Shown: positions 11,206-29,449 of the stretch, piece after piece
Layout of the letters: the number at the start of each line of letters is the position of its first letter
How positions within the stretch are numbered: position 1 is the stretch's first letter
Source: a virus
Length of the DNA stretch: 29,779 nucleotides
Reading direction: 5' to 3' (one strand)
Virus record (IMG/VR): IMGVR_UViG_3300033153_005864
Span: 1 to 29,779 of that record
Translations under genes and position numbers: made by a program
The notes under the pieces: model-generated
Database searches by the model: none
What the model was told of the DNA's origin: nothing
Seen by the model: only the letters and a program-made list of their open reading frames with translations

Positions 11206-11406
11206 ATGAGCGAACCTAAAGGTCACTACGGCTACCCTGCTTACTCCAAGCCCGAGCGGGATGCGCTTGTCAGCACTATTGATACCTACCGTTCTATTAT
11301 TACTTCTATTACCAAGGGCCTAGATGATACCAATAAGAGATACGTCGCGTTCAAGGAAGCCCTTGACGACGCAATGAAGGGTATGGAGGAACATATGAGA
11401 AGATGA
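11206..11406 (+). CDS. Small helical protein before the polymerase (66 aa)
   Basis: The ATG at 11206 follows AAGGAGATTGAAC. After a Gly/Tyr/Pro-rich start (GHYGYPAYSKPERDAL) the rest is predicted to be helical, with a possible short coiled coil (TITDTYRS-type heptads through FKEALDDAMKGMEEHM). The stop overlaps the polymerase start as ATGA, so the two are translated in a coupled way. The function is unknown; a polymerase accessory role is a guess from that coupling. Confidence 0.55.
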   Translation: MSEPKGHYGYPAYSKPERDALVSTIDTYRSIITSITKGLDDTNKRYVAFKEALDDAMKGMEEHMRR

Positions 11407-13985
11407 CTCTCTCCTCTGACATCAAAGCCTGCTCGGCCTGTGTCCTGCGTGACACCTGCACCCAGTCTGTCCCTAGTAGTGGCAGTATCAATGCTCCTGT
11501 CATGCTCATTGGGGAAGCCCCTGGTAGGGATGAAGATAGGGAAGGCAAAACCTTCATTGGTAAGGCCGGTAAGGAGCTGGATAACTACCTGCGCCGCATC
11601 AAGCTTTATCGCAGTCGGTGCTATGTGGCTAATGTGGTTAAGTGTAGACCCAAGGGAGACTCCGACCCTCCGGTGGGGAGTATTGAGGTATGCAAGGCTC
11701 TCTATCTCGATGAGGAGATTGCGCAGTCCGAGGCCTTTGTGATAGGGCTACTGGGCGCTACAGCGTGTAGGACTATCCTCGGTAAGGATTTCAATCTTGA
11801 GATGAAGCATGGGATACCACAGGAGAGAGGTGGTAGGACTTATCTCCCTATGTACCATCCCGCCGCAGGGCTACACAATACTACACAGATGATTCATATC
11901 CTGAATGACTTTGCAGCGCTCCGAAGTGTCCTCTCAGGTGACTATAAAAGCGGTTGGGTTACCCTACCCCACGAGTACGTCTTACTTGATAGCGCTAAGG
12001 AGGATAAGGCCCACACTAAGGCCTCTAAAGACTTATTTCGCGCTAAGGATGTGGCAGTGGATACTGAGACGGCTTATGGTGACCCTTGGTGTCTAAGCTT
12101 CTGCTGTTCTCATGGTACAAGTTATGTAGTCATGGCTGACGACCATGAGATGCTCTACAGGCTCAACTCATACCTCTCGAAGCCTGGGGTTAATACAATA
12201 ATCCATAATGCGATGTTCGACCTTGGGATATTGGAAAAGATGAACGTCAAGCCCCATACTGTCTATGACTCAATGGTGGCCGCCTACCTCCTCCAGGATC
12301 AGCCACAAGGCCTCAAAGCTCTCGGGTACAGATTATGCGGAGTGGAGATGAACAGTTATACTGATGTCGTAAGTGAAGTTACCTACGACAAGGCCCTCGA
12401 CTATCTCCACAAAGTCTACGAGCGTGAATGGTCAACTCCCGAGTCTCAGATCAAGTGGGTCAAAGGTGAACCTAAAGTGTACACCCCACGACCACTCGAT
12501 GCCAAAGTTGAGACGATGGTTGTGGACTGCGCTATGAAGGAGGCGGACCCTGTCAAACGCTGGGCCAATGTTGATGTCGAGACACGTCTGCATGTATCCA
12601 ACATACTGGGTGAGCCTATGCCTGAAGGATCTCTAGCCGATGTTCCTCTTGACGTAGCTGTAGACTATTCAGCTCAAGACGCCGACATCACCCGGCGCAT
12701 CTGGCCTATCCTCAAAGAGCGTCTCGACGACCTAGGTTTATGGGAGACCTTTGAATTGGATATGAGTATCATTCCCATGGTCGCAGAGATGCAGAAGCAA
12801 GGCCTGAAACTCGATACAAGCGTCCTCACAGACCTCCGAGACTACCTACTTGATGAAATGGTCAAGATTGAGGATAAAGTGGCTGAGATGGCAGGGAAGC
12901 GGGTGAATTTAGCGTCTACGAAGGAGGTGGGGGGCTTACTCTATGAGAAATACAATCTTAGGCCTAAGAAGAAGTCTAAGAAGACCGGTGACCCCTCTAC
13001 CGACGCCGACTCCTTGGAAGCTATCAAGCACCGTCATCCCGTAGTCCCCTTGATAATGGAATGGAGAGTCCTTGAGAAGCTCAGAGGCACTTATACCGAT
13101 TCAATAGTCAGGAAGGTGGGCCTCGATGGGAGAGTCAAACCCACTATCCGTATCACAAGGACTCATACCGGCAGACTGGCTACCTCGGAGCCTAACCTTA
13201 TGGCTATCCCCAAGCGCTCCGAAGTAGGTAGGAGAGTCAGGGACGCTTTCATTGCAGATGATGGACGCAAGATCGTCTCAGGGGATTACTCACAGATAGA
13301 GCTTCGAGTGGCCGCAGCCGCGTCGGGGGATAAGGCTATGATAAAGGCCTTCCTTGACGACCAAGACATACATTCCCTTACAGCGAGTAGAATCTTCGGT
13401 ATCCCTATTGACAGGCTCGACAAGATGAGACACAGGCTTCCCGCCAAGACTGTCAACTTCGGCATCCTTTACTCAATCAGCGCTGAAGGACTCTATGACC
13501 AGCTCAAATCAGCAGGGTGTGAAGGTTGGACAGTGAGGAAGTGTGAAGGCCTTATCAAAGAATGGTTCAACCTGTTTGAGGGCATCAAAGACTACTTCAA
13601 GACGGTTGACTCCGAGGCTAGGCGCTATGGTTACGTGAGAAATATGTTTGGTAGGATCAGGCGCATCCCCGAAGTCAGGAGTGTACACTTTTGGGTAGCC
13701 GACGCAGGGATACGTCAAGCTCGTTCTCATGTTATCCAAGGGGCGGCGCAGGATATAATGAAGATGAGCATGGCTAAGATGACTCCGGTGTACCAAGGCT
13801 TCCAGAAACAGGGCTACTTCTGCTCACCATTGCTTCAGATTCACGATGACCTGCTCTATGAGATGGACAAAGGGATTGTAGAGGAGTTTACCAAAGAGCA
13901 GAAGAGAGTGATGGAGTCAGTGGTGGACTTACCGGTACCGATCAAGATAGATATTTCAGTAGGGGATAGATGGAGTGAAGTATAA
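11403..13985 (+). CDS. Family-4 uracil-DNA glycosylase fused to proofreading family-A DNA polymerase
   Basis: 860 residues in three parts. Residues 1-180 resemble family-4 UDG: Cys pairs C10/C13 and C81/C97 for an Fe-S cluster, GEAPGRDED (37-45) with FIGKAG, YVANVVKCRP (74-83), and YHPA (151-154). Residues about 210-430 are a DnaQ-like 3'-5' exonuclease: D220/E222, N269/D273, Y422-x3-D426. Residues about 440-860 are the polymerase: motif A DYSQIELR (628-635), O-helix R678, K682, F686, Y690, and motif C H814-D815-D816. In E. coli Pol I the last residue is Glu. A UDG-like N-terminus on a phage polymerase is known from the SPO1 type. The protein would replicate phage DNA and may sense or remove uracil. 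No 5' nuclease domain is present. The start is coupled to the previous stop. Confidence 0.92.
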   Translation: MTLSSDIKACSACVLRDTCTQSVPSSGSINAPVMLIGEAPGRDEDREGKTFIGKAGKELDNYLRRIKLYRSRCYVANVVKCRPKGDSDPPVGSIEVCKALYLDEEIAQSEAFVIGLLGATACRTILGKDFNLEMKHGIPQERGGRTYLPMYHPAAGLHNTTQMIHILNDFAALRSVLSGDYKSGWVTLPHEYVLLDSAKEDKAHTKASKDLFRAKDVAVDTETAYGDPWCLSFCCSHGTSYVVMADDHEMLYRLNSYLSKPGVNTIIHNAMFDLGILEKMNVKPHTVYDSMVAAYLLQDQPQGLKALGYRLCGVEMNSYTDVVSEVTYDKALDYLHKVYEREWSTPESQIKWVKGEPKVYTPRPLDAKVETMVVDCAMKEADPVKRWANVDVETRLHVSNILGEPMPEGSLADVPLDVAVDYSAQDADITRRIWPILKERLDDLGLWETFELDMSIIPMVAEMQKQGLKLDTSVLTDLRDYLLDEMVKIEDKVAEMAGKRVNLASTKEVGGLLYEKYNLRPKKKSKKTGDPSTDADSLEAIKHRHPVVPLIMEWRVLEKLRGTYTDSIVRKVGLDGRVKPTIRITRTHTGRLATSEPNLMAIPKRSEVGRRVRDAFIADDGRKIVSGDYSQIELRVAAAASGDKAMIKAFLDDQDIHSLTASRIFGIPIDRLDKMRHRLPAKTVNFGILYSISAEGLYDQLKSAGCEGWTVRKCEGLIKEWFNLFEGIKDYFKTVDSEARRYGYVRNMFGRIRRIPEVRSVHFWVADAGIRQARSHVIQGAAQDIMKMSMAKMTPVYQGFQKQGYFCSPLLQIHDDLLYEMDKGIVEEFTKEQKRVMESVVDLPVPIKIDISVGDRWSEV

Positions 13986-16490: not shown

Positions 16491-18062
16491 TTATGGTATA
16501 ACATACCAACCATCGTATCCGAGTGGGTAAGGCCCGATAATGCGAGGCTCGCATAGTCGTGAACCCTTACCCTCATTATAGAGGGCGGCAATTTCATCCG
16601 CTGTAATTACGCGGTTGAATATACGGACATCGTCAATGTCTCCATTAAAGACATTTGCAGCAGAACCCGAACGCTTAGAGCCTATCGTAAAGTCATCAGT
16701 ACAAGTATCCAATGGGCTTGCTATTGTGTTATCCGAATTCTTGAGAATGGTGTCAATATAAGAGAATGCTTCAGTGCCATCGTAAGTTATAACCAAGTGG
16801 TACCACGTCGATGTCTCAATGAAGCCCGCTATGCCAATCCCCGCATCACCTCCAGCGCTATCCCAAAGCTGTATTGACAAGCCTGATGTTGCGTTGTTTC
16901 TAACCCAGAGTGTACGGTTTCCAGCTCCTACATACTGAGCGCAGATTGTGGAGTTGGCGACGAGACTGGAATTGTTGAACCACAAGCTAAGGCTCATACT
17001 GGTCATGCCTCCCAGGATGTCATCTGTAGTGGGCACATAGTCATCCACTCCATCAAAGATTAATGACGGAGAAGTTATGCCGGATACTCCTGGAGTAGTA
17101 TGAGCGTCGGTGTTAGGGTCACCACCGACATCTGTGAAAGTGCCGTCATAACCACCTATTGAATCCTCGACAGTAGTGTTAGCTGTATTGTCATCCATCT
17201 TCCACCATGCAACAGTGTTGAAGCACAGGGAGAAGGTGCTGGCGTAGCCCTCACTGTAGAGAGTTGAAGTTGTCTCGCAGAGGGGAGCAACTCCTACAAC
17301 GCGGTAAAAATAGTGAGTCTCATCGTAACCGACTGTATGAGTGGCTATCTCATCTTCAGTGACTGTCAATACATTATCAAAGTTTATCTCATCGGTACCA
17401 TAGTAGACAGTGTAAGAAGTGGCCGTATCCTCTTCATCCCAAGTTATCACGATCTTGTCGTAGTAATCCCCGTCTGAAGCGTCAACCCCTGTTGGAGCCA
17501 CGACGTTAGGATCAGGAGTAGGGGCCAGTGCCATATAATCAATTCTAAAGAAATCATTGGCGACCCCTTTGGAAAGGTGGCAAATACGCAACCAGAGTTG
17601 ATTCGATTGAAAGTTGTTTGAATCTAAGACACCGGCTAGATTGAATGTATAGTCCTGATCGGACGACTCATCTGGAAAGTCCTTTGCGGCTTCCGTCACT
17701 CTCTCAAAGATTTCACTAACAAAATCATAGGCGCATAGAACGATAATATGACTAGGATTGCCGTCGTAGTAGCCTTGAAAGTCCATATTGAGTAGGCATC
17801 CTGGTTGCCGATTACTGGGGATATTCTTAAAATGGAAAATAACCTCTAATCCAGGTGTTGTTGCAGTCTCTTCAAACACAAGCCTAGTATCATCCTTCTC
17901 TTGCACATCACTCAAGTCCCCACTATCGTGAACACCGGCCACGAGAGTATAAGTCGCAGGGTAGTACCACGGAGTGGCGGTGGGTGACGGTGATGGAGAC
18001 GCCGTACATGGGTACCCTAAGACAGGGACCATGAGGATACAAAGACATAGGAGATACTTCAT
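16491..18062 (-). CDS. Exported FN3 plus LamG-like lectin protein (523 aa)
   Basis: The start at 18062 is set by CGAAAGGAATCCACT upstream. Residues 1-16 are a Sec signal (MKYLLCLCILMVPVLG), followed by a Ser/Pro/Thr linker (TASPSPSPTATP). Residues about 32-180 are an unassigned beta-rich domain. Residues 188-275 are a fibronectin type III domain (APTGVDASDG, IVITWDEEDTATSYTVYYGT). Residues 284-497 are a concanavalin-A/LamG-like domain (AWWKMDDN, SLIFDGVDDYV, GDIDDVRIFNRVITADEIAAL). LamG domains bind sugars or proteins. A signal peptide is odd for a virion protein, so this may be a surface or secreted product of the infected cell. It starts on the stop of the upstream gene (ATGA). Confidence 0.75.
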   Translation of the reverse strand: MKYLLCLCILMVPVLGYPCTASPSPSPTATPWYYPATYTLVAGVHDSGDLSDVQEKDDTRLVFEETATTPGLEVIFHFKNIPSNRQPGCLLNMDFQGYYDGNPSHIIVLCAYDFVSEIFERVTEAAKDFPDESSDQDYTFNLAGVLDSNNFQSNQLWLRICHLSKGVANDFFRIDYMALAPTPDPNVVAPTGVDASDGDYYDKIVITWDEEDTATSYTVYYGTDEINFDNVLTVTEDEIATHTVGYDETHYFYRVVGVAPLCETTSTLYSEGYASTFSLCFNTVAWWKMDDNTANTTVEDSIGGYDGTFTDVGGDPNTDAHTTPGVSGITSPSLIFDGVDDYVPTTDDILGGMTSMSLSLWFNNSSLVANSTICAQYVGAGNRTLWVRNNATSGLSIQLWDSAGGDAGIGIAGFIETSTWYHLVITYDGTEAFSYIDTILKNSDNTIASPLDTCTDDFTIGSKRSGSAANVFNGDIDDVRIFNRVITADEIAALYNEGKGSRLCEPRIIGPYPLGYDGWYVIP

Positions 18063-19021
18063 AGTGGATTCCTTTCGAGCCACCTTACGGCTGCCCTTCC
18101 CCAAGACGTATTGGGCCAATCGTCCTTTATTGTTATTGTTGTCTGTCTAGCGGCCTCGAAGACTGCACTGCGTTTGCCTAGCTTACCCTCGGAAGCGAAC
18201 TGCCTGGCAAGGGCAAGATAGGAACGCTGAGCATAAACCAACGCCCAGCAGAAGGAGTCATCATTAGCGCCTTCGGGCCTTGTTGCATAATACGTCCTGA
18301 CTGATTGAGTACAAAGGGCGTATTCCTTCCGCATGAACAACCCTTGGATTTCCAAGTACTTAGCTTCCCCTACTAGACCTGCTTCAGCCATTTTTACCAG
18401 TAGCGCATCCAACCTCTCCCAGTTACTCGCGTCCCTTGAACACTCTGCCAAGTCTTGGAGGATACGAGGATTGCTTACTAAGAGGGCTGAGGTCAATGGG
18501 ATAGAGTTTATCTTAATTATTGTTTGCTTGTGGAGGGCAGAGCCGCTCTCTCGAAAGGATCTGTGCCTCATCCAATTTATCCACCTCCACGCCTTCGGGG
18601 TGACTTGACCGGTAGTTGTCAGGGCATCAATAGACACCATCGTCGTATGGCTTTGAGGTAAGACTTCTCGGAGCCTGTTTACGACGCTTGTCAACGCGTC
18701 ATCGGTCTTTGAGGAGAAGAGCCTGTCAATCAAGAGTTTCTTCTCGTGGCGTAAAGGGTCGCGGTTCATCTCAAAGGCAGGGAGACTGACGATAAGGAAA
18801 GACTGGATACGTTTAGCTAAAAGGCGAGTTCGCTTGGTGACTTGGAGTAAATCCTCTTCAGAGACTCTTTTCAGCAATAACGAAGCCGTAGTAAGGTTGG
18901 CGTTGACCCCGCTCTTCCAACACAGTATTCGCGCCATATTGATTGTCTCCGTGGTGTTCAAAGCTTGGGCGCTCCCTGACACCATCAGCAGCAGTGTAAT
19001 TGTAAAGATTAGGCTTCTCAT
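18059..19021 (-). CDS. Exported alpha-helical protein of unknown function (320 aa)
   Basis: The ATG at 19021 follows CATAGGAGAGCC. Residues 1-20 (MRSLIFTITLLLMVSGSAQA) are a classical Sec signal with A-Q-A before the cut. The mature protein appears entirely helical; the C-terminal 130 residues (AKYLEIQGLFMRKEYALCTQ; YAQRSYLALARQFASEGKLG) resemble tetratricopeptide-type helix pairs. No hydrolase motif (lysozyme, amidase, peptidase) is visible. Translation is coupled to the LamG protein by ATGA, so the two probably act together outside the cytoplasm. Confidence 0.6.
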   Translation of the reverse strand: MRSLIFTITLLLMVSGSAQALNTTETINMARILCWKSGVNANLTTASLLLKRVSEEDLLQVTKRTRLLAKRIQSFLIVSLPAFEMNRDPLRHEKKLLIDRLFSSKTDDALTSVVNRLREVLPQSHTTMVSIDALTTTGQVTPKAWRWINWMRHRSFRESGSALHKQTIIKINSIPLTSALLVSNPRILQDLAECSRDASNWERLDALLVKMAEAGLVGEAKYLEIQGLFMRKEYALCTQSVRTYYATRPEGANDDSFCWALVYAQRSYLALARQFASEGKLGKRSAVFEAARQTTITIKDDWPNTSWGRAAVRWLERNPL

Positions 19022-19030
19022 AAGGCTCTC

Positions 19031-19999
19031 CTATGTATCCTGAGTACTAAACTTCAAAAGGACTCCTATGACATCGACATAGGTGTAGTCGCTGTTGAGC
19101 ACGTCAAATATCAATGTAAAGTTGACCATTCTACCCGCCGTCCATACCAAGTCCTTGCTCCCCAAGGAGGCTGTCAGGATGTCGGCCAGCTCCCCTGTAG
19201 CAGTGGGGTCTGGAGTTGTAACGTCTTGGTCGGCAATGACTGTGACACCCTGCTCTAATGGATTAATTATAGCGTTATTCCAATGAGCGGACTCCACATC
19301 GAAACGCCATATATCTCCTGATACAAAAGCGGTGTTTTCCATAGTGAGGAAGAGGACGACCTCGACAAGGCCTCCTGCGTAGTCTATAGGGACTGTAAAC
19401 GTCCACTGAGCCTCTGGGGTGTTACTCCCATCGGTATCGTCCATCCTGACCACTCTGAGGATAGGCCCAGCGGCGCTCTCTATAGTCTCCTTTGAGCAGT
19501 TTACAGTCATTGCGCCGCCGGCGGTAAGGAACATCTCACGGGTCTGGCTGGAGGCGGAGACGGTAAGTGTATCCTCGCCACTTGGTTGAGTAATATCAAT
19601 ACCGTCACCGGCTACGAGTTTGTCCTCAAGGTAGCCTGGTGTCCCAGCGGCATCTACTAGAACCAAACCTTCAAGGGCGTCGATAAGTGTCATTGCTCTG
19701 GTGTAGATGTCAGGGAAATGACGATCCCCTTGGTTGACTTTTGGTAGGTCGTGGTTTGTAGTGAAATCAGTGACGACAGCATAGGATACATCTATGCGTG
19801 TCGTGGGATAATTAGTTGTTAGAGTGATTGCCTGTGTAACGTTATCAACATCTGAGACGATGTAAAAGACGCTATCCGGCCCTATAGTTATTTCATCGCC
19901 AACTGAGACATTACTTCCTTTTATCCATCCAGTACTCGTACCGGAGATGGTGTTTGTTCCAGCAGCCGTAACTACTGTTCCCGTGCTGTATTGAGCCAT
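19031..19999 (-). CDS. Tail-fibre or baseplate-associated protein (322 aa)
   Basis: The start at 19999 (MAQYSTGTVV) uses GGGAGGCTATGAACTA upstream and overlaps the J-like stop as TAATG. Residues 1-80 follow a pattern typical of phage tail-fibre N-termini: GTNTISGTSTGW, VGDEITIG, FYIVSDVD, ITLTTNYP. Next come a hinge with 'GDRHFPDIYTRAMTLIDAL', a 'KLVAGDGIDITQPSGEDTL' stretch as in many fibre shafts, and a beta-sandwich C-terminal half (WTFTVPIDYAGG; LVEVVLFLTMENTA). It probably attaches to the tip complex next to the J-like protein. Confidence 0.7.
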   Translation of the reverse strand: MAQYSTGTVVTAAGTNTISGTSTGWIKGSNVSVGDEITIGPDSVFYIVSDVDNVTQAITLTTNYPTTRIDVSYAVVTDFTTNHDLPKVNQGDRHFPDIYTRAMTLIDALEGLVLVDAAGTPGYLEDKLVAGDGIDITQPSGEDTLTVSASSQTREMFLTAGGAMTVNCSKETIESAAGPILRVVRMDDTDGSNTPEAQWTFTVPIDYAGGLVEVVLFLTMENTAFVSGDIWRFDVESAHWNNAIINPLEQGVTVIADQDVTTPDPTATGELADILTASLGSKDLVWTAGRMVNFTLIFDVLNSDYTYVDVIGVLLKFSTQDT

Positions 20000-22900
20000 T
20001 AGTTCATAGCCTCCCATGAAGTTCCATTGTACCTATACATTTTATTGCCATCATCGGTATCGAACCAAATGTCACCGGCTATAGGGTCGGTAGGAGCAGT
20101 GTCTTGCGCGTAAGTCCAAGCTTCGGCGCCTACGTCAATATCATCGAAATCAAATTTTTCATTCGATTCATCGTCACCAAAGACATCGTAAGCATGTAGA
20201 CGGTAACCATATCCCCGGTCCCCCAGCTCATTACAGAATGTATTTGGCCCTTTATAAAGAGTGAAGGGGCCGTCGAGTAAGTCGAACTGGAAAGAACGTT
20301 TTACCTCATACTCAACTACGTCGGGGTCGGGATGAGCGTCCCAAGTGATGTACTTGTTGTGATAAGATATATAGACATTGAAGTTAGTACATATCGACGG
20401 CGCTTCATTCTTGACGGTTATAGTAGCGTCGTACTCCGACTTACTCCCAAAGACATCCACTGCCCATACTTTAATATTGAACTCCCTTTTTGGAGAGTTA
20501 TCATGGTCGTCAGTATTCTTTTCCAACGTATAGATGTACTCAGGATTCTGCGTTGTCTCGGTACGCTTCTTAGTCCATGCTCCTGGAATATCCTCTGTCC
20601 ACATTTCCACCAGATAGTGGCTAAAGAAAATATCTCGGGATGCTCCACCGGAGTAGTCGGACTCAAGGTCGCGCATGGTGAAGGCTGTTTCATTCCAGAC
20701 AAAGTGAGCATCAGCAGTGACAAACGTGGTGGAATTGGCGAGGTCTTTCAACTGTAACCCAGTGACTTTGGGAGGAGTCACGCCAATAGTAAAGTGAAAG
20801 TCCTCCGTCGGCGCATCGTCAAAATTAGCGACTACACCCCATTTGGAGACAGCAACCACTTTGACTTCATAGCGCATCCCTGGAGTGAAATCGTGAAGAG
20901 CATAAAAAGGCTTTTTGGTTGACCCTTCATACTCCCAACTGCCAGTACCGTACTCAGTAGTGTAAACGTCAACATGGTCAAAGAAGCCACTATCTTCATC
21001 TATATCGGCTATATCATAACCGATATAGATGACCATAGCGTAGGTCAATGAGTGAACGACAGAAATACTCTCCACCTGTGAAGGTGGCCTTCTAGGGTCG
21101 GGTAAATTAGAGTACTGGATGATTTCTGGAATGTCACCGCTTTCATCATAGACGGCCTCAATGTACTCAGAGCAAGTGATACTCACCTCCCCTTCACCCT
21201 CCCTCTCTATAGAGACGACCCTGAAGGGTTTGGTGGAGATGTCGGCAACACCGGTATCTCGGCCGATGGCGAAGACATCGTAGTCTTGAGGAGCAGCAGT
21301 CCAGTTACCATCAATGGTCAGAGGCGTGCCCGCAGGGTATGACCCTGGTAAACTTAGGAGTGTCTGACTCTCAATAACGTCTGAACCAGCATGACGAACT
21401 TTGATTTTATAGGCCTCACCCGAAGCAATATCAGGAAGCGTTATATCCCTCGTAGTTGTGAAAGTAGCATCTTCTCCCGAAGCGTTAGTTGACGACGCTA
21501 TTCTCCCACTGGCGACACCCCATTGTGGGACATCGTGGGCAAAGTTGATAACGTCTCCAGCTTGACAGGCTACAGCGTCTACACCAGCTTTGAATTTTAT
21601 ATCCCGCGTGACATTACGGGATATAAGCAGTATATACCTACAAATACGATAAGCCTGCTCTCGACGAGTAACACCAGCGAGGAAGAGAGACCTTTTCCTC
21701 ACAGGATCATTGTTAGCTATTGAATCCGTATCCTCGACAGCAATGATTTCCCTCTCATAATTATTATCCTCGTTCAAGAACTGTGCCTCAACCACGTTAT
21801 AGACATCCCGTATACTGTGGAAAGTTTCACTAAAGGAGTTGGCGACTATATTACCCATGGTGAACAGCTGCGTAGGTGTTTCTATTTTATCTATTACAAA
21901 CTTCACTGTGCTGGCGCTATAAAAAGGCCAACACCGAAAAGTAGTTGCAATCTGGATAAGCATGTCGAGAGAGCGAGTGAGACTATCTATGACCATATCC
22001 AATTTGAAACGCGCTCCACCATCTACCTCTTCATCACAATACTCTGCCATGTCGAAGAAGTCGTCGTTGTCAACAGCCGTCGATGGAAGGAAATCCCCAA
22101 CACCATACCTATGATTGGTAAGTAAGTCCCTAGTACACCATGAAGGGTTCTGTGAATATTCAATCATACTATCGTCGTCGGAGTCTACGACCTCAATCTC
22201 TAAGCCTTCTACATCCACGACAATGTTTGGTATGCTCCCAGAGAGTTGATCCGTCGCCATCAACTTAATGCCTAGTAGGGCAGTATAAGGATAAGCCAAC
22301 TCCTCACTTTGTATTTCTTCAACAGAGTGGAGATGTAAATCCCCTACGGTCATACTGTCACCAGGGGAACCAGAAGCATCCCACGTCGTTCTCTTCACAA
22401 GCATATCATATTTAGCAGGAGTCAAATCCGTAATCTCAGCACTACGCCTGAGAACTGAGGTAGTCTTCTCGGTTATTGTATTGGACGCTCCGAGAACCCA
22501 AGCGTCGCCACTTCCGTGAATCCTTGTATATACCTCATAACTTATACTCCACGGATGATATTTCCCAGATGACCCTGGCGTAGTGTATAATCCCGTAGGA
22601 ACCCTGAAGTGTGTAACGAGAGTATCGACGTTAGCATAAGAAGTAGTATAGATATAACCAGGCTCCGAACCATCCCCATAAACCAACTTTATATTAGCAG
22701 AGGACAAGTCAAAGCTATTAACCACACGATTGAAACCTTTGATAGGGGTTTGATCTTGAGTACCTAATCTAACCGATAGGGTGCCATCAGTATAATTACT
22801 GGCTGGATTACCCTCTATTTCTACAGTGTCACCAAAAGTAGCTATATCAACATCGTCCTGGTCTGACTCAAGCCCGCCAATGCTCTTTAATTTACCTTCC

Positions 22901-23442
22901 CCAAGACTTAAGAGGATGTTTAGATAGTTCTTATCGTCTATACTAGTCACAAAAACATTGATAACATTACCAGCATTGACCATCTTACCATAATTAATGG
23001 CAATAGGTACATCCACTTTAGCTTGAGTGACAGCACCATCCCAACCATAAGTAGGGGAATTATCGAGCGTGTCATTAGTTCCTGTCTCACTTTTGATACT
23101 CCCAGCGGCTTTCTTAGCTTGATTGGCTGTATACATAGCATACGCTGCTGCGGCTATTGTAGCAACTACAGCAATAATCTTTATGACGAGCCAGATTACT
23201 GCCAATACGGCAAGTGAAATACCAAAGCTAGGATAGATTATTATCTCTTCACCATCACCCACACGAGATATATTAATATCATCAGGTTCAACTCTCCCGA
23301 TACTGGATGTTACTACATGGAGGTCGCCACTGACTCGATCCAACGGGATATAATCAATCAAAAAAGGTGAGTGAAAACCAACTTCAACAACAACCCTATC
23401 GGACTCATCAAAAAGATTATTAATTGTAGTTATCTTTATCAT
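19999..23442 (-). CDS. Tail tip/host-specificity protein, lambda J-like (1147 aa)
   Basis: ATG 23442 behind CAAAGGAATA, overlapping the previous stop as TAATG. Residues about 74-104 are a long hydrophobic segment (ISLAVLAVIWLVIKIIAVVA and onward). After it come J-type blocks: PTYGWDGAVTQAKVDVPIAI, NYGKMVNAGNVI, LNILLSLGEGKLKSI. The middle contains the hub beta domains (WCTRDLLTNHRYGVG; GDVINFAHD). Residues about 690-1090 have three fibronectin type III-like domains, and the end (AGDIWFDTDDGNKMYRYNGT) is a short module common in fibre proteins. The protein forms the central tip spike and probably contacts the host receptor. No separate I-like gene precedes it; the hydrophobic N-terminus may be that part fused. 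Confidence 0.85.
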   Translation of the reverse strand: MIKITTINNLFDESDRVVVEVGFHSPFLIDYIPLDRVSGDLHVVTSSIGRVEPDDINISRVGDGEEIIIYPSFGISLAVLAVIWLVIKIIAVVATIAAAAYAMYTANQAKKAAGSIKSETGTNDTLDNSPTYGWDGAVTQAKVDVPIAINYGKMVNAGNVINVFVTSIDDKNYLNILLSLGEGKLKSIGGLESDQDDVDIATFGDTVEIEGNPASNYTDGTLSVRLGTQDQTPIKGFNRVVNSFDLSSANIKLVYGDGSEPGYIYTTSYANVDTLVTHFRVPTGLYTTPGSSGKYHPWSISYEVYTRIHGSGDAWVLGASNTITEKTTSVLRRSAEITDLTPAKYDMLVKRTTWDASGSPGDSMTVGDLHLHSVEEIQSEELAYPYTALLGIKLMATDQLSGSIPNIVVDVEGLEIEVVDSDDDSMIEYSQNPSWCTRDLLTNHRYGVGDFLPSTAVDNDDFFDMAEYCDEEVDGGARFKLDMVIDSLTRSLDMLIQIATTFRCWPFYSASTVKFVIDKIETPTQLFTMGNIVANSFSETFHSIRDVYNVVEAQFLNEDNNYEREIIAVEDTDSIANNDPVRKRSLFLAGVTRREQAYRICRYILLISRNVTRDIKFKAGVDAVACQAGDVINFAHDVPQWGVASGRIASSTNASGEDATFTTTRDITLPDIASGEAYKIKVRHAGSDVIESQTLLSLPGSYPAGTPLTIDGNWTAAPQDYDVFAIGRDTGVADISTKPFRVVSIEREGEGEVSITCSEYIEAVYDESGDIPEIIQYSNLPDPRRPPSQVESISVVHSLTYAMVIYIGYDIADIDEDSGFFDHVDVYTTEYGTGSWEYEGSTKKPFYALHDFTPGMRYEVKVVAVSKWGVVANFDDAPTEDFHFTIGVTPPKVTGLQLKDLANSTTFVTADAHFVWNETAFTMRDLESDYSGGASRDIFFSHYLVEMWTEDIPGAWTKKRTETTQNPEYIYTLEKNTDDHDNSPKREFNIKVWAVDVFGSKSEYDATITVKNEAPSICTNFNVYISYHNKYITWDAHPDPDVVEYEVKRSFQFDLLDGPFTLYKGPNTFCNELGDRGYGYRLHAYDVFGDDESNEKFDFDDIDVGAEAWTYAQDTAPTDPIAGDIWFDTDDGNKMYRYNGTSWEAMN

Positions 23443-23845: not shown

Positions 23846-25855
23846 TTACCCCCCTCTCACTCGCCTCGATGGTACTCCAGGAAAGCCACCAAAGCGTAAT
23901 TGATTGTTATGCTGCTTACAGGCTATTAAAGTCTTTGAACAGCTACTACTAACAGAAACATAGACGTTGCGGAAAGATAGGTTGATACTACTTGCATCCG
24001 TCGAATAACAATAGGCGCGAACATAATTGATGGCCGACACATCCAAATCGCCCCCTGCAACATTAAAGGATGAAAAAGGTATTTTGAATGCTTGGTAAGA
24101 AGCAGTGATGTTGGCTGTATCGGGGTATGTAGCCTCTAAAGGCAGCTTTTTAGATAAGTCCGTTAGGCTCCACTCATTTACATCCGATCCTCCACTACTG
24201 GTAATCTCCAACTGACTGTTTTCGCTGATTTTGGTTGGATTATCACATTTCATTTCAATGTAGCAGAAATCATTGGCATCGCGCTCCAAACCCGTAGCAT
24301 CCCTGTCTTGGAATTTGGCGTCAACCATGGAGAAATCGACCTTATAGAAGATACTGACGGCCTGAAAGTACATCATGGGAGAATAAGTGCCCCAAAAGAG
24401 TGGAGATATACGCAAGCGAATACTTCGGATAGAGGATAAATTGAGAGGCCCGTCATGCTCGACAAAATCGCTGAAAGGCAACTTTAGCGCGTACCATGGG
24501 CCTACATTGATCTCGTCCGTTCCTCCACCGGCTAGAGGAACTTGACCTCCGATGTTATCATACACCCACCTAGGACTATTATTTATATCCTCAACCGCAC
24601 TACTGATAGTTATATCGCTGTATCCAACCGCATCACGTATCAAGTCGGAATGAAAGCCTCCTGTCTCGGTGACTTTTATACTGATAAGCAATGAGTCTAC
24701 AGCCTTCCTTACTCCTGAGAAGTCCTTTGGCTGTGTGATGGCCATCAAGGGCCTGACACCACCCATACTCATGGTTCCACCTACAAGGCCTGGAAAGAAA
24801 GACGATTCGTTACTACCCTCTTGAGCAACATCTAAAAGAAGTATCTTATACCCCTTAAATGTATCATCACCAGGGGCGGTATAGTCAGGCATGTTAGGCC
24901 AAGAAAGGGAGGCTCGACGCCAGTACAAGCCACTAGATACAATATCTGGCGCGAAATAAGCAAAGATACGGATAAAGTCAATCTCGGATACGTCAAGAGG
25001 GTCGGTCTCAACAAAGTTGTCGAGGGTAATAATGAATGTTTGCCATGAATTGGAGATAGTAGCGCCTTTAATACTAGTCAACGCTCCTATATTGGTGTAC
25101 TGCCATACTTCTGAAGAGATGGAACCCGAGCTTGTTATCTCAATACGGGAATTAGAGAGATCGAAGTCATCGGGGTCATCAACCTTCATGTCAATCGTCA
25201 GAGAGCATGTAGCATCACGCACAAGGCCCGTACAATCTTTCTTGGCGAAACGTAGCGAAGCATCGACATAGGCAGAAAAACCCACTGATTCTACAGTATG
25301 CTCAGTCAGCAACCCCGCCTCATGCCAACAACCATAACCCTTATATCGCCAGGGACAGTAGTTACGTTGGTATCTTCTACGGGGTACTTTCGCCTGTTGA
25401 ATATCCATTTTGGTTGATAGAGTAAATTCAGCTGAATTAGCCGTAGTCGCCACCTTATCGATATAATAGGTGTCCTCCAGATAAGCATCAGAATCAGCTA
25501 AAAGACCAACAAATACTTGACGTATCGTAACCTGTCGGCCCCGAAGGGCATCTCGATTCTCTAATTCAAACTGTATCTCTTGACTGACATTAGATATTGT
25601 TACCTTTAGATTCTCGACACGGCCTTGAGTATTCTCTGATATACCTCCGTGCCTTATTGGAAAACGTGTATAGGTTTGAGGAGTATTTACATCCTTAAAG
25701 TACTCTATATCCGTATCGTACTCAGCTAGGAAGAGGTCATCCTCCCCGCTGTCGTCTGGAGTATCCGACAAGTTTATTCTATAAAGCCAAATGATCCCAA
25801 CCGTGGCGGCATCTTTCTCAGCCCTAAAATCATCCGATATAATGGTTCTAGCCAT
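23846..25855 (-). CDS. Lambda L-like tail tip protein with large three-repeat insertion (669 aa)
   Basis: The start at 25855 (MARTIISDDF) is served by AGAGGTGAGATA and overlaps the previous stop (TAATG). Residues 1-160 are a beta-rich tip domain. C167/C176 (RNYCPWRYKGYGCWHEAG) and C639/C646 (SSCSKTLIACKQHNN), followed by RFGGFPGVPSRR, match the C-x8-C and C-x6-C metal site and the ending of lambda-type minor tail protein L. In that family the four Cys lie close together; here about 460 residues intervene. They contain three related beta-sandwich units (about 200-320, 368-508, 512-636), sharing RDAT/RDAN, IEITSSG, W..T, and PLDVS.I.FIR patterns. These are likely binding domains displayed from the tip. 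Confidence 0.82.
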   Translation of the reverse strand: MARTIISDDFRAEKDAATVGIIWLYRINLSDTPDDSGEDDLFLAEYDTDIEYFKDVNTPQTYTRFPIRHGGISENTQGRVENLKVTISNVSQEIQFELENRDALRGRQVTIRQVFVGLLADSDAYLEDTYYIDKVATTANSAEFTLSTKMDIQQAKVPRRRYQRNYCPWRYKGYGCWHEAGLLTEHTVESVGFSAYVDASLRFAKKDCTGLVRDATCSLTIDMKVDDPDDFDLSNSRIEITSSGSISSEVWQYTNIGALTSIKGATISNSWQTFIITLDNFVETDPLDVSEIDFIRIFAYFAPDIVSSGLYWRRASLSWPNMPDYTAPGDDTFKGYKILLLDVAQEGSNESSFFPGLVGGTMSMGGVRPLMAITQPKDFSGVRKAVDSLLISIKVTETGGFHSDLIRDAVGYSDITISSAVEDINNSPRWVYDNIGGQVPLAGGGTDEINVGPWYALKLPFSDFVEHDGPLNLSSIRSIRLRISPLFWGTYSPMMYFQAVSIFYKVDFSMVDAKFQDRDATGLERDANDFCYIEMKCDNPTKISENSQLEITSSGGSDVNEWSLTDLSKKLPLEATYPDTANITASYQAFKIPFSSFNVAGGDLDVSAINYVRAYCYSTDASSINLSFRNVYVSVSSSCSKTLIACKQHNNQLRFGGFPGVPSRRVRGG

Positions 25856-26187
25856 TATCTCACCTCTTCCCACTCCCAATAGACAGTTACCCTACCCTCT
25901 GAGTAGACTCTCCTGAAGCTGCCTGGAGAGAATCTCAGAGTATAGGTCACATCGTCTAAGTGAGAATCCCAAGTAAATGTACTGAGACCACCACTACGAG
26001 CGTCAAAGAAGTCTTGATACTCTTGAGCCTGCGCCTCGGTCAGATTGACAGAGGAGCATTTGAACTGGCGAAAAGAGCCGGAAGTTATAGACCTGCGCTG
26101 CTCCGTGCCGTCCTCGAAATTGGAGATTAGGGTACGGTATGAAGGAGTCTCTTCAATAGTCGTCACATCGAGAGTAAAGTTAGCCAT
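25855..26187 (-). CDS. Minor tail protein, lambda M-like (110 aa)
   Basis: The ATG at 26187 is close behind AGGGGGCGTAAC. The sequence has the family features YRTLISNFEDGTEQRR near the N-terminus, a central LTEAQAQEYQDFFDARSGGL helix with STFTWDSH, and a closing YTLRFSPGSFRRVY strand. Size and position between tape measure and the L-like gene agree with lambda gpM, which sits at the tail tip during assembly. No anomalies seen. Confidence 0.78.
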   Translation of the reverse strand: MANFTLDVTTIEETPSYRTLISNFEDGTEQRRSITSGSFRQFKCSSVNLTEAQAQEYQDFFDARSGGLSTFTWDSHLDDVTYTLRFSPGSFRRVYSEGRVTVYWEWEEVR

Positions 26188-26188
26188 G

Positions 26189-29100
26189 TTACGCCCCCTG
26201 TATGGCCTTTCTTATAGGGCCATTATTCATTGTATCTTCAGATATGATATTTACGATGACATCTCTACCCGCTCTGGACGCCATGTTACGAGCCGTAGCT
26301 TCATCGGTCACAAAGTTCCAGATTTTGACACCATCTGAGCCGCCTTCACCAGGGGCCTTAGAATCGCTGGCAGGGGTAACAGACTCACCCGTATGGAGCT
26401 TGTAGTCCCCAGTGTAGGGAACATAGTCGGTGCCCTCTTTGAAGTTCTTAGAGGCTGCTATGGCTCCTACAGCGGCAGCAGCAAAAGCTAAGCCGACGGC
26501 AAGACCAGCATAGGGTATATGAGCGTGAGCCGATATGTACTTTGCAGTAGCCGTCCAGACAGCCACACCAACTTCCCATGCGGCCTTCATCCCCAACCAC
26601 GCCTTCTCCACTACCCACATAGCCTTTTTTTGCAGGAATGCCCAACGGTCCAACCAGACTTGCTTTGTGGCAACAGAGGCGCTCACAGCTAACTTAGACT
26701 TAGCAAACAGCTTTTGTATGGTCAGTGTAGTCTGCTCTGTCTGAAGCATCTTAGCGACATACTTAGCCATCGTGTTGGCCCACTGCCTAATCACAGCATT
26801 ACCAATATCCTTAAACAGGCCCTTCATAATGTCTTTGAAGTTCGCCCCACGTCGGGCCATAGCGTCAAAGGCATTAGCCCATGCTGATTCCATGGTAGCG
26901 GCAGATTGTTGAGCTTCAGTCATTTCCCAATTCGCACCCGTGCCCACACCCCGAAGCATCTCACGTCGCTTGTCTACAGCCTCCATTACAAAAACATCAT
27001 TACGTCTCTTAGCTTCCGCATAAAATCCATCAAGGAGCGCCATCTCCTTATTGAACGCCTCCTCCGTCATTATATGCCGAGACGCCAACTGTCCCTCATA
27101 AGACTTAGCGTACTCCTCCTTCTCTCTTTTTAAGCGCTCCCTTAGCTCCCTCTCCTCATTCCTTGCAGTAATAGCGGCAGCATCCTTTCTGATTCCCTCA
27201 AGGGCCGCCATAAGCCTCACCTCGGCAAGCTCCTTCAACAAGCTTACTTCGTTGACAGTACCCTTAGCCGAATTAACAGCTATCTCAAATTCGTGGTGAG
27301 CTTGGAGCGTTCTACGCGCTATCGTATCTTTGGTACTCACTATTTCAATCTGTCTTTCCAATGATGCTATATTCTTAAAATATCCCTCCTCAAGACTAAA
27401 TAACCCTTTTACCTTTTCATAGACGCCCGAGACAGAACCTTTAATCTGGTCCCAATAACTCTGCATCTCCTTCTCTTTTTCAACTAATTGTATGTACACT
27501 TCACCAAGAGCTTTTTCTTCATCTGAAGTCCTTGTTTTTTTACCAGCAAGGGCCTCGTAGTATTCTCTTAGCTGATTTACTTTAATGCCCGCCTGACCAA
27601 GATTCTCAATTACTGTACCCAAACCAGCCTCATAGCGAAGCATTGCCATTCGAGACTCAGTCCACGCGTTTACTACTGACGTCCCCATCCCCTCCATCAT
27701 AGATTTTATACGACCAATAACTTCAACTTGAGACTCCAGAGCTCTCTCCTCCAATCGAAGATTTTGTATGCGCTTAAGTATCTCCTTCCTTCTCTGTAGG
27801 TCAGGACCAGACCATCCTGGAGGGGCAACTGAGGCAAGAGGAGACGTATCAATCCCCCCTCTACCACGAGGCACTACTAGAGGAACAATCAATTCACGTC
27901 GTAGGGCTGCCAATGCTCCCCTCAATCTACTCAATTGATCCTCCTTCTCATCCAAAGCCCTCCCAGCGCCAATAGGGACTAGATTGTCCATATTTTTCCT
28001 GATCGTCGCCAAAGGCACCCCAAGATCGGTTGCCGCTTTAATGAGAGCCTCAGTAACGGATAATACTCTCAGTTCAGCATCCACCGAACCATCCATAGCA
28101 TTCGAGACTTTATCATATTGTTTTTGTAGATTTTGTAGCGCTTCTAATTTGGATACTAAAGACTCAATATGCCGTTTATCGGCTTCAGTAGCAGCCCTAC
28201 TTTTAGCTATATAAGTTGCAATGCCACCAACAACTAACGGGAGGACAACAAGAGCGCCTCCTAGGGTTAACCAGAGTGTTTTCATTGATATATCCAGAGC
28301 TGTCATAGCAATAACAAGATTTGATATTGTCAGTGTCAGAGAACCGAAGGCTAAATTTATTGCGCCTATTGTACCTATTGCCACAGTAGCGCCTATAATC
28401 CACGCGCCCCAAACCTTAGAAAATCTTTCAAACCCCTCCATACCTTCATCTAACCACTCATTAAGGGACATAAACAACCCTCTCAGAACATCGAAGGCTC
28501 CCGATTCAGCCATAAAGATATTACGAAGACGGAACCATTTATCCCTCATCATGGACATGAGACCCGTCCATGTGCGCGCCATCTTCTTAGCAGCCCCACG
28601 AAACTTACTTTCAGGATCAGTCCAAGCGTCCATCATTATCTTCCGAGTCTCAGCGATGGTGTAATGCACACCATCACGGAAACCCATCATAGCTGTAGTG
28701 CCGGACTCACGGAAGAGGTCGGCAGCGCCAGCTCCAGCAGAGAGCATGCGTTGGACTTGAATTGAAGTTTCTTCAAAGGTATGACGGGTAACAGCCGCCA
28801 AGTCGGAGATGAGAGGCATCCACTTTATGACATCGTCAGCGCCGCCTTCAAGGACAGCAGAGAGATTGGTGGCGGCCCCCATGATTTTCTCATACTCGTG
28901 GGGAACGGCAGCGGCATGTTTAGCCATAGCCTGGAACAGCCTTGACCCCTCAGCCTGACTCTTCAATACAGTAGAGAGACGCATGGCAAACTGTTCAGAT
29001 GTATCAGCGGCTTTTATGAACGTGCGCGCCGTCAGACCTATAGCCGCAGTTATGGCAGCGCCAAAGAGAGTTGCCGACATGGCGACTCTATTGAGAGCAT

Positions 29101-29449
29101 GTTCATTTCTTTTAAGCTTCTGGCTCCACGTCTCGGTAGACGCTATAACAGGGGTGATCTGCCTACGCAGAGCAGCCATACGCTGGTTGACCTGATCCAT
29201 AGCCCTCGCGTCGCCACGGAGGGAAAACTTTAGTATGTCTAACTGAGCTATCTGCTTCTTGACGGATGCAGTGGTGGTGATACCTAGGGATTTGAACTGA
29301 GCTTCCCGCTTACTCAATGCCTTAGCGGCGCTTGAAGATATAGCAGCATCGGAGCGCTTAAACGCTCCACGGACCTTGTCGAGGTCCCGCTTGAGACTCT
29401 TCAAGTCTATTATGACTCTTGCAGCTATGGCTCCAGCATCAAAGGCCAT
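26189..29449 (-). CDS. Tail tape measure protein (1086 aa)
   Basis: The ATG at 29449 (MAFDAGAIAARVIIDL) has GGGTAAAGGATA upstream and overlaps the previous stop. Residues about 1-130 are coiled coil. About 130-290 is the conserved TP901-type tape-measure core (KAADTSEQFAMRLSTVL; TNLSAVLEGGADDV; EETSIQVQRMLSAGAGAADL). Two hydrophobic regions lie near 345-410 and 985-1012. Long coiled coils fill 430-850, and a Gly-rich tail ends in FKEGTDYVPYTGDYKLHTGE. The protein sets tail length and is ejected ahead of DNA. At 1086 residues, and taking the usual rule of about 1.5 angstrom per residue, it suggests a tail of roughly 150 nm. Confidence 0.93.
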   Translation of the reverse strand: MAFDAGAIAARVIIDLKSLKRDLDKVRGAFKRSDAAISSSAAKALSKREAQFKSLGITTTASVKKQIAQLDILKFSLRGDARAMDQVNQRMAALRRQITPVIASTETWSQKLKRNEHALNRVAMSATLFGAAITAAIGLTARTFIKAADTSEQFAMRLSTVLKSQAEGSRLFQAMAKHAAAVPHEYEKIMGAATNLSAVLEGGADDVIKWMPLISDLAAVTRHTFEETSIQVQRMLSAGAGAADLFRESGTTAMMGFRDGVHYTIAETRKIMMDAWTDPESKFRGAAKKMARTWTGLMSMMRDKWFRLRNIFMAESGAFDVLRGLFMSLNEWLDEGMEGFERFSKVWGAWIIGATVAIGTIGAINLAFGSLTLTISNLVIAMTALDISMKTLWLTLGGALVVLPLVVGGIATYIAKSRAATEADKRHIESLVSKLEALQNLQKQYDKVSNAMDGSVDAELRVLSVTEALIKAATDLGVPLATIRKNMDNLVPIGAGRALDEKEDQLSRLRGALAALRRELIVPLVVPRGRGGIDTSPLASVAPPGWSGPDLQRRKEILKRIQNLRLEERALESQVEVIGRIKSMMEGMGTSVVNAWTESRMAMLRYEAGLGTVIENLGQAGIKVNQLREYYEALAGKKTRTSDEEKALGEVYIQLVEKEKEMQSYWDQIKGSVSGVYEKVKGLFSLEEGYFKNIASLERQIEIVSTKDTIARRTLQAHHEFEIAVNSAKGTVNEVSLLKELAEVRLMAALEGIRKDAAAITARNEERELRERLKREKEEYAKSYEGQLASRHIMTEEAFNKEMALLDGFYAEAKRRNDVFVMEAVDKRREMLRGVGTGANWEMTEAQQSAATMESAWANAFDAMARRGANFKDIMKGLFKDIGNAVIRQWANTMAKYVAKMLQTEQTTLTIQKLFAKSKLAVSASVATKQVWLDRWAFLQKKAMWVVEKAWLGMKAAWEVGVAVWTATAKYISAHAHIPYAGLAVGLAFAAAAVGAIAASKNFKEGTDYVPYTGDYKLHTGESVTPASDSKAPGEGGSDGVKIWNFVTDEATARNMASRAGRDVIVNIISEDTMNNGPIRKAIQGA

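Follow-up and report, generated by a model that had tools for sequence, protein, structure and literature searches.

Genes at the locus

The window analysed here is the whole stretch of viral DNA, 29,779 nucleotides long (positions 1 to 29,779 of IMG/VR record IMGVR_UViG_3300033153_005864). It carries a set of tail genes on the minus strand:

26189..29449, minus strand: tape measure protein (TMP_3, E 1.3e-7)
25855..26187, minus strand: gpM/Dit-like minor tail protein, 110 aa (DUF2460, E 1.4e-8; Phage_min_tail, E 3.7e-4)
23846..25855, minus strand: gpL-type tail tip/hub protein P0002 with a split Fe-S motif, 669 aa
23442..23843, minus strand: gpK-like NlpC/P60 protein (E 9.6e-18)
19999..23442, minus strand: gpJ-like central tail protein (phrog_31, E 3.8e-121)

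These genes follow the lambda order tape measure - M - L - K - J. The P0002 gene starts with an ATG at 25855 and its stop codon ends at 23846; a TTG at 25879, upstream of the ATG, is a possible alternative start. The plus strand across the same interval is stop-rich. The gpJ-like protein has the conserved part of its family and a match to fn3. It also contains a long hydrophobic stretch at about residues 72-104, and its residues 62-165 match the tail assembly protein family phrog_32 very weakly (E 0.5). Since a separate I gene is absent between K and J, these two features suggest that J may include a gpI-like part by fusion, comparable to the iris domain of the RcGTA megatron.

Two further genes of the window are of note. 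Downstream of the tail genes (16491-18119, minus strand), a protein of 542 aa carries a lectin domain of the Laminin_G_3/concanavalin-like type (E 9.5e-24) and is, by this match, a probable further glycan-binding part. At 11403-13985 on the plus strand an 860-aa fusion protein begins with a domain of the uracil-DNA glycosylase superfamily (PF03167, E 3.6e-26), followed by a family A DNA polymerase that includes a 3'-5' exonuclease domain.

A gpL-type protein with a divided cysteine motif

The features of P0002, in order from its N-terminus, are as follows:

25361..25855, minus strand: N-terminal HDI-like beta-sandwich core (Phage_tail_L), residues 1-165 (PF05100, 8iyk_L)
25328..25357, minus strand: first cysteine pair, C167-x8-C176 (CPWRYKGYGC)
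23942..25327, minus strand: 462-residue insert between Cys 2 and Cys 3, residues 177-638
24890..25288, minus strand: repeat unit 1, residues 190-322, predicted CBM30/11-like beta-sandwich
24791..24889, minus strand: 33-residue linker before unit 2, residues 323-355
24338..24790, minus strand: repeat unit 2, residues 356-506, 151 aa, the longest and most diverged
23945..24340, minus strand: repeat unit 3, residues 506-637
23918..23941, minus strand: second cysteine pair, C639-x6-C646
23870..23893, minus strand: C-terminal FGGFPGVP motif, residues 655-662

Phage_tail_L (PF05100) matches residues 60-178 with an E-value of 9.8e-17 and 61.4 bits, against a cut-off of 25. The family phrog_18 matches in two stretches (E 9.8e-28), and the structure of lambda gpL (8iyk_L) is matched by both halves of the protein, that is, by the N-terminal part and by residues 637-661; with the profile of alignment A7 the match to 8iyk_L reaches an E-value of 1.2e-32. 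On these matches P0002 is a lambda gpL-type hub protein, in agreement with the preliminary description, and the two cysteine pairs and the FGGFPGVP ending named there all lie where it placed them.

P0002 has cysteines at positions 167, 176, 208, 217, 531, 537, 616, 639 and 646. The four that make up the two pairs are invariant in an alignment of 25 proteins, comprising P0002, two other insert-bearing proteins (L184 and L185) and 22 compact homologues, and the profile of the second pair also aligns those of lambda gpL and the RcGTA hub (C250-x6-C257...FRGFPHIP in the latter). The context of Cys 2 within this group is GxGCW in insert-bearing members and mostly ECGY in compact ones. It had been proposed that the four cysteines normally lie within about 40 residues; those of lambda gpL (C173, C182, C205 and C212) bear this out (PMC10721106), and in the subfamily of P0002 itself they span only about 26 residues.

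An AlphaFold2 model of full-length P0002 is poor (pLDDT 60.5, pTM 0.33). It is mostly confident up to residue 150, and pLDDT falls below 50 at residues 151-209 and nearly all of 637-669, the regions of the two cysteine pairs. Because the cysteines are invariant and the RcGTA, R4C and lambda structures provide precedents, we infer that the four cysteines of P0002 would meet at one cluster. What the Fe-S cluster does in siphophage tips is described as awaiting characterisation (PMC10721106).

Three homologous units fill the slot

Pairwise comparison of the three units gave scores of 155 for units 1 and 3 (shuffled maximum 49; 37% identity), 90 for units 1 and 2 (shuffled maximum 48) and 76 for units 2 and 3 (shuffled maximum 44). 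By these scores the units are homologous, with a similarity far above chance, and the insertion of some 460 residues with three related beta-rich domains, as first noticed, is confirmed.

Relatives of P0002 proved hard to find directly. Searches of viral contigs with the whole protein, the core only or the repeat units returned no relative, a phage search with the insert only and a DNA pattern for the CPW-type cysteine motif gave no match, and the best 80 matches of a scan with alignment A3 were short-slot L proteins only. Relatives were reached through a gpJ search, which led to locus L180, and then through a scan with alignment A5. The J protein of L180 is 46% identical to that of the window over the best segment. 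Its L protein has 203 aa with the arrangement C-x8-C-x8-C-x6-C, and is 39% identical over its whole length to P0002 minus the insert. The A5 scan, made with the pair of P0002 core and L180, yielded 79 loci.

The slot between Cys 2 and Cys 3 holds 8 residues in L180 and the other compact homologues (22 residues in three outgroup rows of the 22), compared with 462 in P0002. These relatives with an empty slot align with their cysteines intact, which upholds the earlier view that the insertion leaves the tip core unaltered. At the same site, L185 has an insert of 161 residues and L184 one of 290 residues, containing respectively one and two units homologous to those of P0002 (unit 3 of P0002 against the L185 unit: score 185, shuffled maximum 44). 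With one unit in L185, two in L184 and none in the compact relatives, the slot thus holds 0, 1, 2 or 3 copies. The tree of the units is poorly resolved, so that a single duplication history and repeated gain look alike. A further relative near P0002 is L211 (33-1403, plus strand), with an unrelated slot insert of 166 residues that looks helix-rich, an altered second cysteine pair (C-x9-C) and extra sequence in the N-terminal half.

Predicted fold of the units

Unit 1, modelled by itself with five homologues, is confidently predicted to be all-beta (pLDDT 86.4). A Foldseek search of the PDB placed two CBM30 structures first and second: 1wmx (probability 1.00, E 8.5e-3, TMq 0.55) and 2c24 (probability 1.00, E 1.3e-2, TMq 0.59). 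Eight of the ten best PDB matches are CBM30 (1wmx, 2c24, 1wzx), CBM4-2 or agarase structures with probabilities of 0.98-1.00; the E-values are modest, the best being 8.5e-3, and the TM-scores of the CBM30 matches are 0.54-0.59. Complex I assembly entries are the non-sugar exceptions among the top ten, with 7zkq ranking third. Among the best matches in viral structures are proteins of uncultured marine viruses and one putative polysaccharide deacetylase.

Independently of the fold, profile searches hint at CBM11/CBM30 with scores under the curated cut-offs. The best CBM_11 score is 23.0 bits against a cut-off of 27, in L184, and CBM matches came from the first unit of L184 only; none of the P0002 units passes the cut-off of a Pfam family profile. 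We therefore describe the unit, from its model, as a CBM30/11-like beta-sandwich that is not a member of the CBM30 or CBM11 family. Going by the modelled fold, the inserted domains of P0002 probably bind sugar.

Use of the slot across gpL-type proteins

The spacing between Cys 2 and Cys 3 was read in 251 gpL-type proteins with readable cysteines; as these were gathered by sequence patterns and include near-copies, the counts are not natural frequencies. The spacing is 20-29 residues in 173 proteins, less than 10 in 30 and 30-39 in four, and the remaining 44 have 74-712 residues in the slot. A clade of 20 rows, with endings such as FGGFPSIEAYRYTN, has 124-712 residues there. A tree of the core region requires the insert to have come or gone six times. 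Well-supported branches force five of these events, and several long branches are unsure; by this tree the slot insert has been gained or lost at least five times.

The content of the slot also varies. Cyanophage S-2L (L006) has 181 residues that look helix-rich. The slot insert of L260 gives a B_lectin match in Pfam (E 4.3e-4, under the cut-off), matches mannose lectins, putidacin and L-type pyocins (lectin-like bacteriocins) in the PDB, and contains QNDGNLVLY, a form of the canonical mannose-lectin motif QxDxNxVxY. As far as these matches go, it is a mannose-lectin domain, unrelated to the units of P0002. Together with the Foldseek matches to CBMs, it makes probable the glycan-binding device inside the Fe-S knot that had been suggested for P0002. 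Many other slot inserts gave no recognised domain in Pfam. A chitin-binding (CBM5/12) motif had been suspected in inserts of the L098, L130 and L232 type and was dropped for want of Pfam support.

Additional sequence also occurs elsewhere in these proteins. L098 (1-1221, plus strand) has a second insert, between the last cysteine and the FGGFPG ending, that matches E1_FCCH (E 2.2e-8). PF05100 was found in 18 of 399 Pseudomonadota genomes, in frames of 230-308 aa except for two. The prophage L proteins of G095 and G395 (428 and 421 aa; Pseudomonadota) have extra sequence near position 92 of the PF05100 profile; by alignment to the profile, this marks another place at which the gpL fold takes insertions, distinct from the cysteine slot.

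Proposed function and alternative explanations

We consider it likely that P0002 is a gpL-type hub protein whose outward Cys 2-Cys 3 loop carries three CBM30/11-like modules that grip host polysaccharide. The N-terminal domain and the four-cysteine Fe-S domain would make up the conserved core of the tail tip in a lambda-like siphophage, and the loop, facing outward, would act as an insertion socket. In the lineage of P0002 this socket would have taken up a CBM30/CBM11-like beta-sandwich module, now present in three tandem copies. If there are three hub chains per tail, as in lambda, nine modules would surround the tip. They may bind a host-surface polysaccharide (capsule, exopolysaccharide or LPS) in a weak, multivalent fashion, and so may hold the tip near the cell until J takes hold of the true receptor. 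The cluster itself, the outward position of the modules, their binding of sugar and a role in adsorption are all putative properties of P0002.

The inserted domains might instead be structural, as Ig-like or jelly-roll decorations or spacers that bind no sugar and widen the tip or contact gpJ, fibres or side proteins. Tails often carry beta-sandwich decorations, the slots of other lineages have quite different contents (for example with the helix-rich-looking segments of S-2L and L211), the CBM assignment is statistically weak, and similar beta-sandwiches have non-sugar roles, as 7zkq does in complex I assembly. However, CBM-type matches head both the fold search and the Pfam hints, and the unrelated insert of L260 is a mannose-lectin domain with the canonical motif. 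Oligosaccharide-binding domains moreover occupy the slots of RcGTA and R4C (PMC7296036, PMC10276861), and a sugar-free role seems to us unlikely. That the array is the primary receptor-binding protein and sets the host range is quite improbable: slot contents do vary in copy number and identity among close relatives, as would be the case for host-range determinants, but the window encodes a gpJ that has its conserved part and matches fn3, and the array, being missing entirely from close relatives, is one that the lineage can do without.

We give little credence to the idea that the insertion broke the Fe-S site and left the cysteine pairs as relics or as binders of separate metals. The full-length model does place the cysteines without confidence, and the second pair of L211 is altered, but the four cysteines and their surrounding motifs are kept in P0002, L184, L185 and other long-insert proteins, and RcGTA and R4C hold their cluster by four cysteines around an inserted domain (PMC7296036, PMC10276861). 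An assembly join or chimeric gene, a prospect raised in the preliminary description, has its unusual length alone to commend it. The P0002 frame is open and stop-free, the GC content of the insert (0.455) is close to that of the core (0.426) and of the tail half (0.467), and the gene order around the L gene is common to P0002 and its relatives. Because homologous units stand at the identical site in L184 and L185, on contigs with different IMG/VR identifiers, a join is to all intents ruled out.

The putative sugar-gripping array may be one case of something wider. Relatives with zero, one, two or different inserts at one site make the site look like a reusable socket. It is an evenly balanced question whether the Cys 2-Cys 3 loop is a general socket, an 'evolved hub' that has repeatedly received glycan-binding modules of unrelated kinds, which then multiplied in tandem, with the cluster as a clamp around 0 to more than 700 residues. 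Such tolerance between ligating cysteines suggests that the cluster serves as a staple for interchangeable modules. If this reading is true, siphophages would have a further evolvable adhesion site beside evolved Dit and Tal, and the Cys 2-Cys 3 spacing would be a simple genomic read-out for adhesion modules in uncultured phages. The natural variants with 0, 1, 2 or 3 units make the staple idea directly testable.

Comparison with known systems

Lambda gpL (8IYK) has in common with P0002 the N-terminal domain, the four cysteines, the C-terminal FGGF motif and the gene neighbourhood, but its Cys 2-Cys 3 spacing is just 22 residues and it lacks an inserted domain. The CBM30/CBM11 modules of cellulosomes (1WMX, 2C24, 1V0A) resemble the P0002 unit in predicted fold and through weak sequence hints, whereas the P0002 units score under the family cut-offs and sit in a phage tail. 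In evolved Dits of lactococcal and other siphophages, carbohydrate-binding modules likewise occur in a conserved tail-tip core protein and are missing in close relatives, and these insertions have been shown experimentally to promote adsorption (PMC10688798, PMC7291167). There the insertion is in Dit, while in P0002 it lies within the hub Fe-S motif and the Dit/gpM-like protein of the window has only 110 aa.

The closest parallels are the hub g13 of RcGTA (6TBA/6TEH) and the hub of roseophage R4C, in which, as in P0002, the Fe-S domain is split by inserted sequence. In the RcGTA hub the insert is an oligosaccharide-binding domain (residues 168-249), flanked by the two parts of the ion-binding domain at 143-167 and 250-263 (PMC7296036); in R4C such a domain at 162-243 lies between ion-binding segments 142-161 and 244-266 (PMC10276861). 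This placement, which had been thought undescribed, was therefore already on record. The R4C megatron protein also has a CBM11-like domain (PMC10276861). Overall sequence similarity between P0002 and the RcGTA hub is slight (E 0.84), and the RcGTA and R4C hubs have a single domain of about 82 residues that is not of the CBM30 type, as against three CBM30/11-like units in 462 residues. The literature searched, mostly excluding subscription papers, held no description of tandem arrays or a copy-number series in the hub slot. In comparison with RcGTA and R4C, the new features are the arrangement of units in tandem, the series of copy numbers among relatives and the recurrent filling of the slot.
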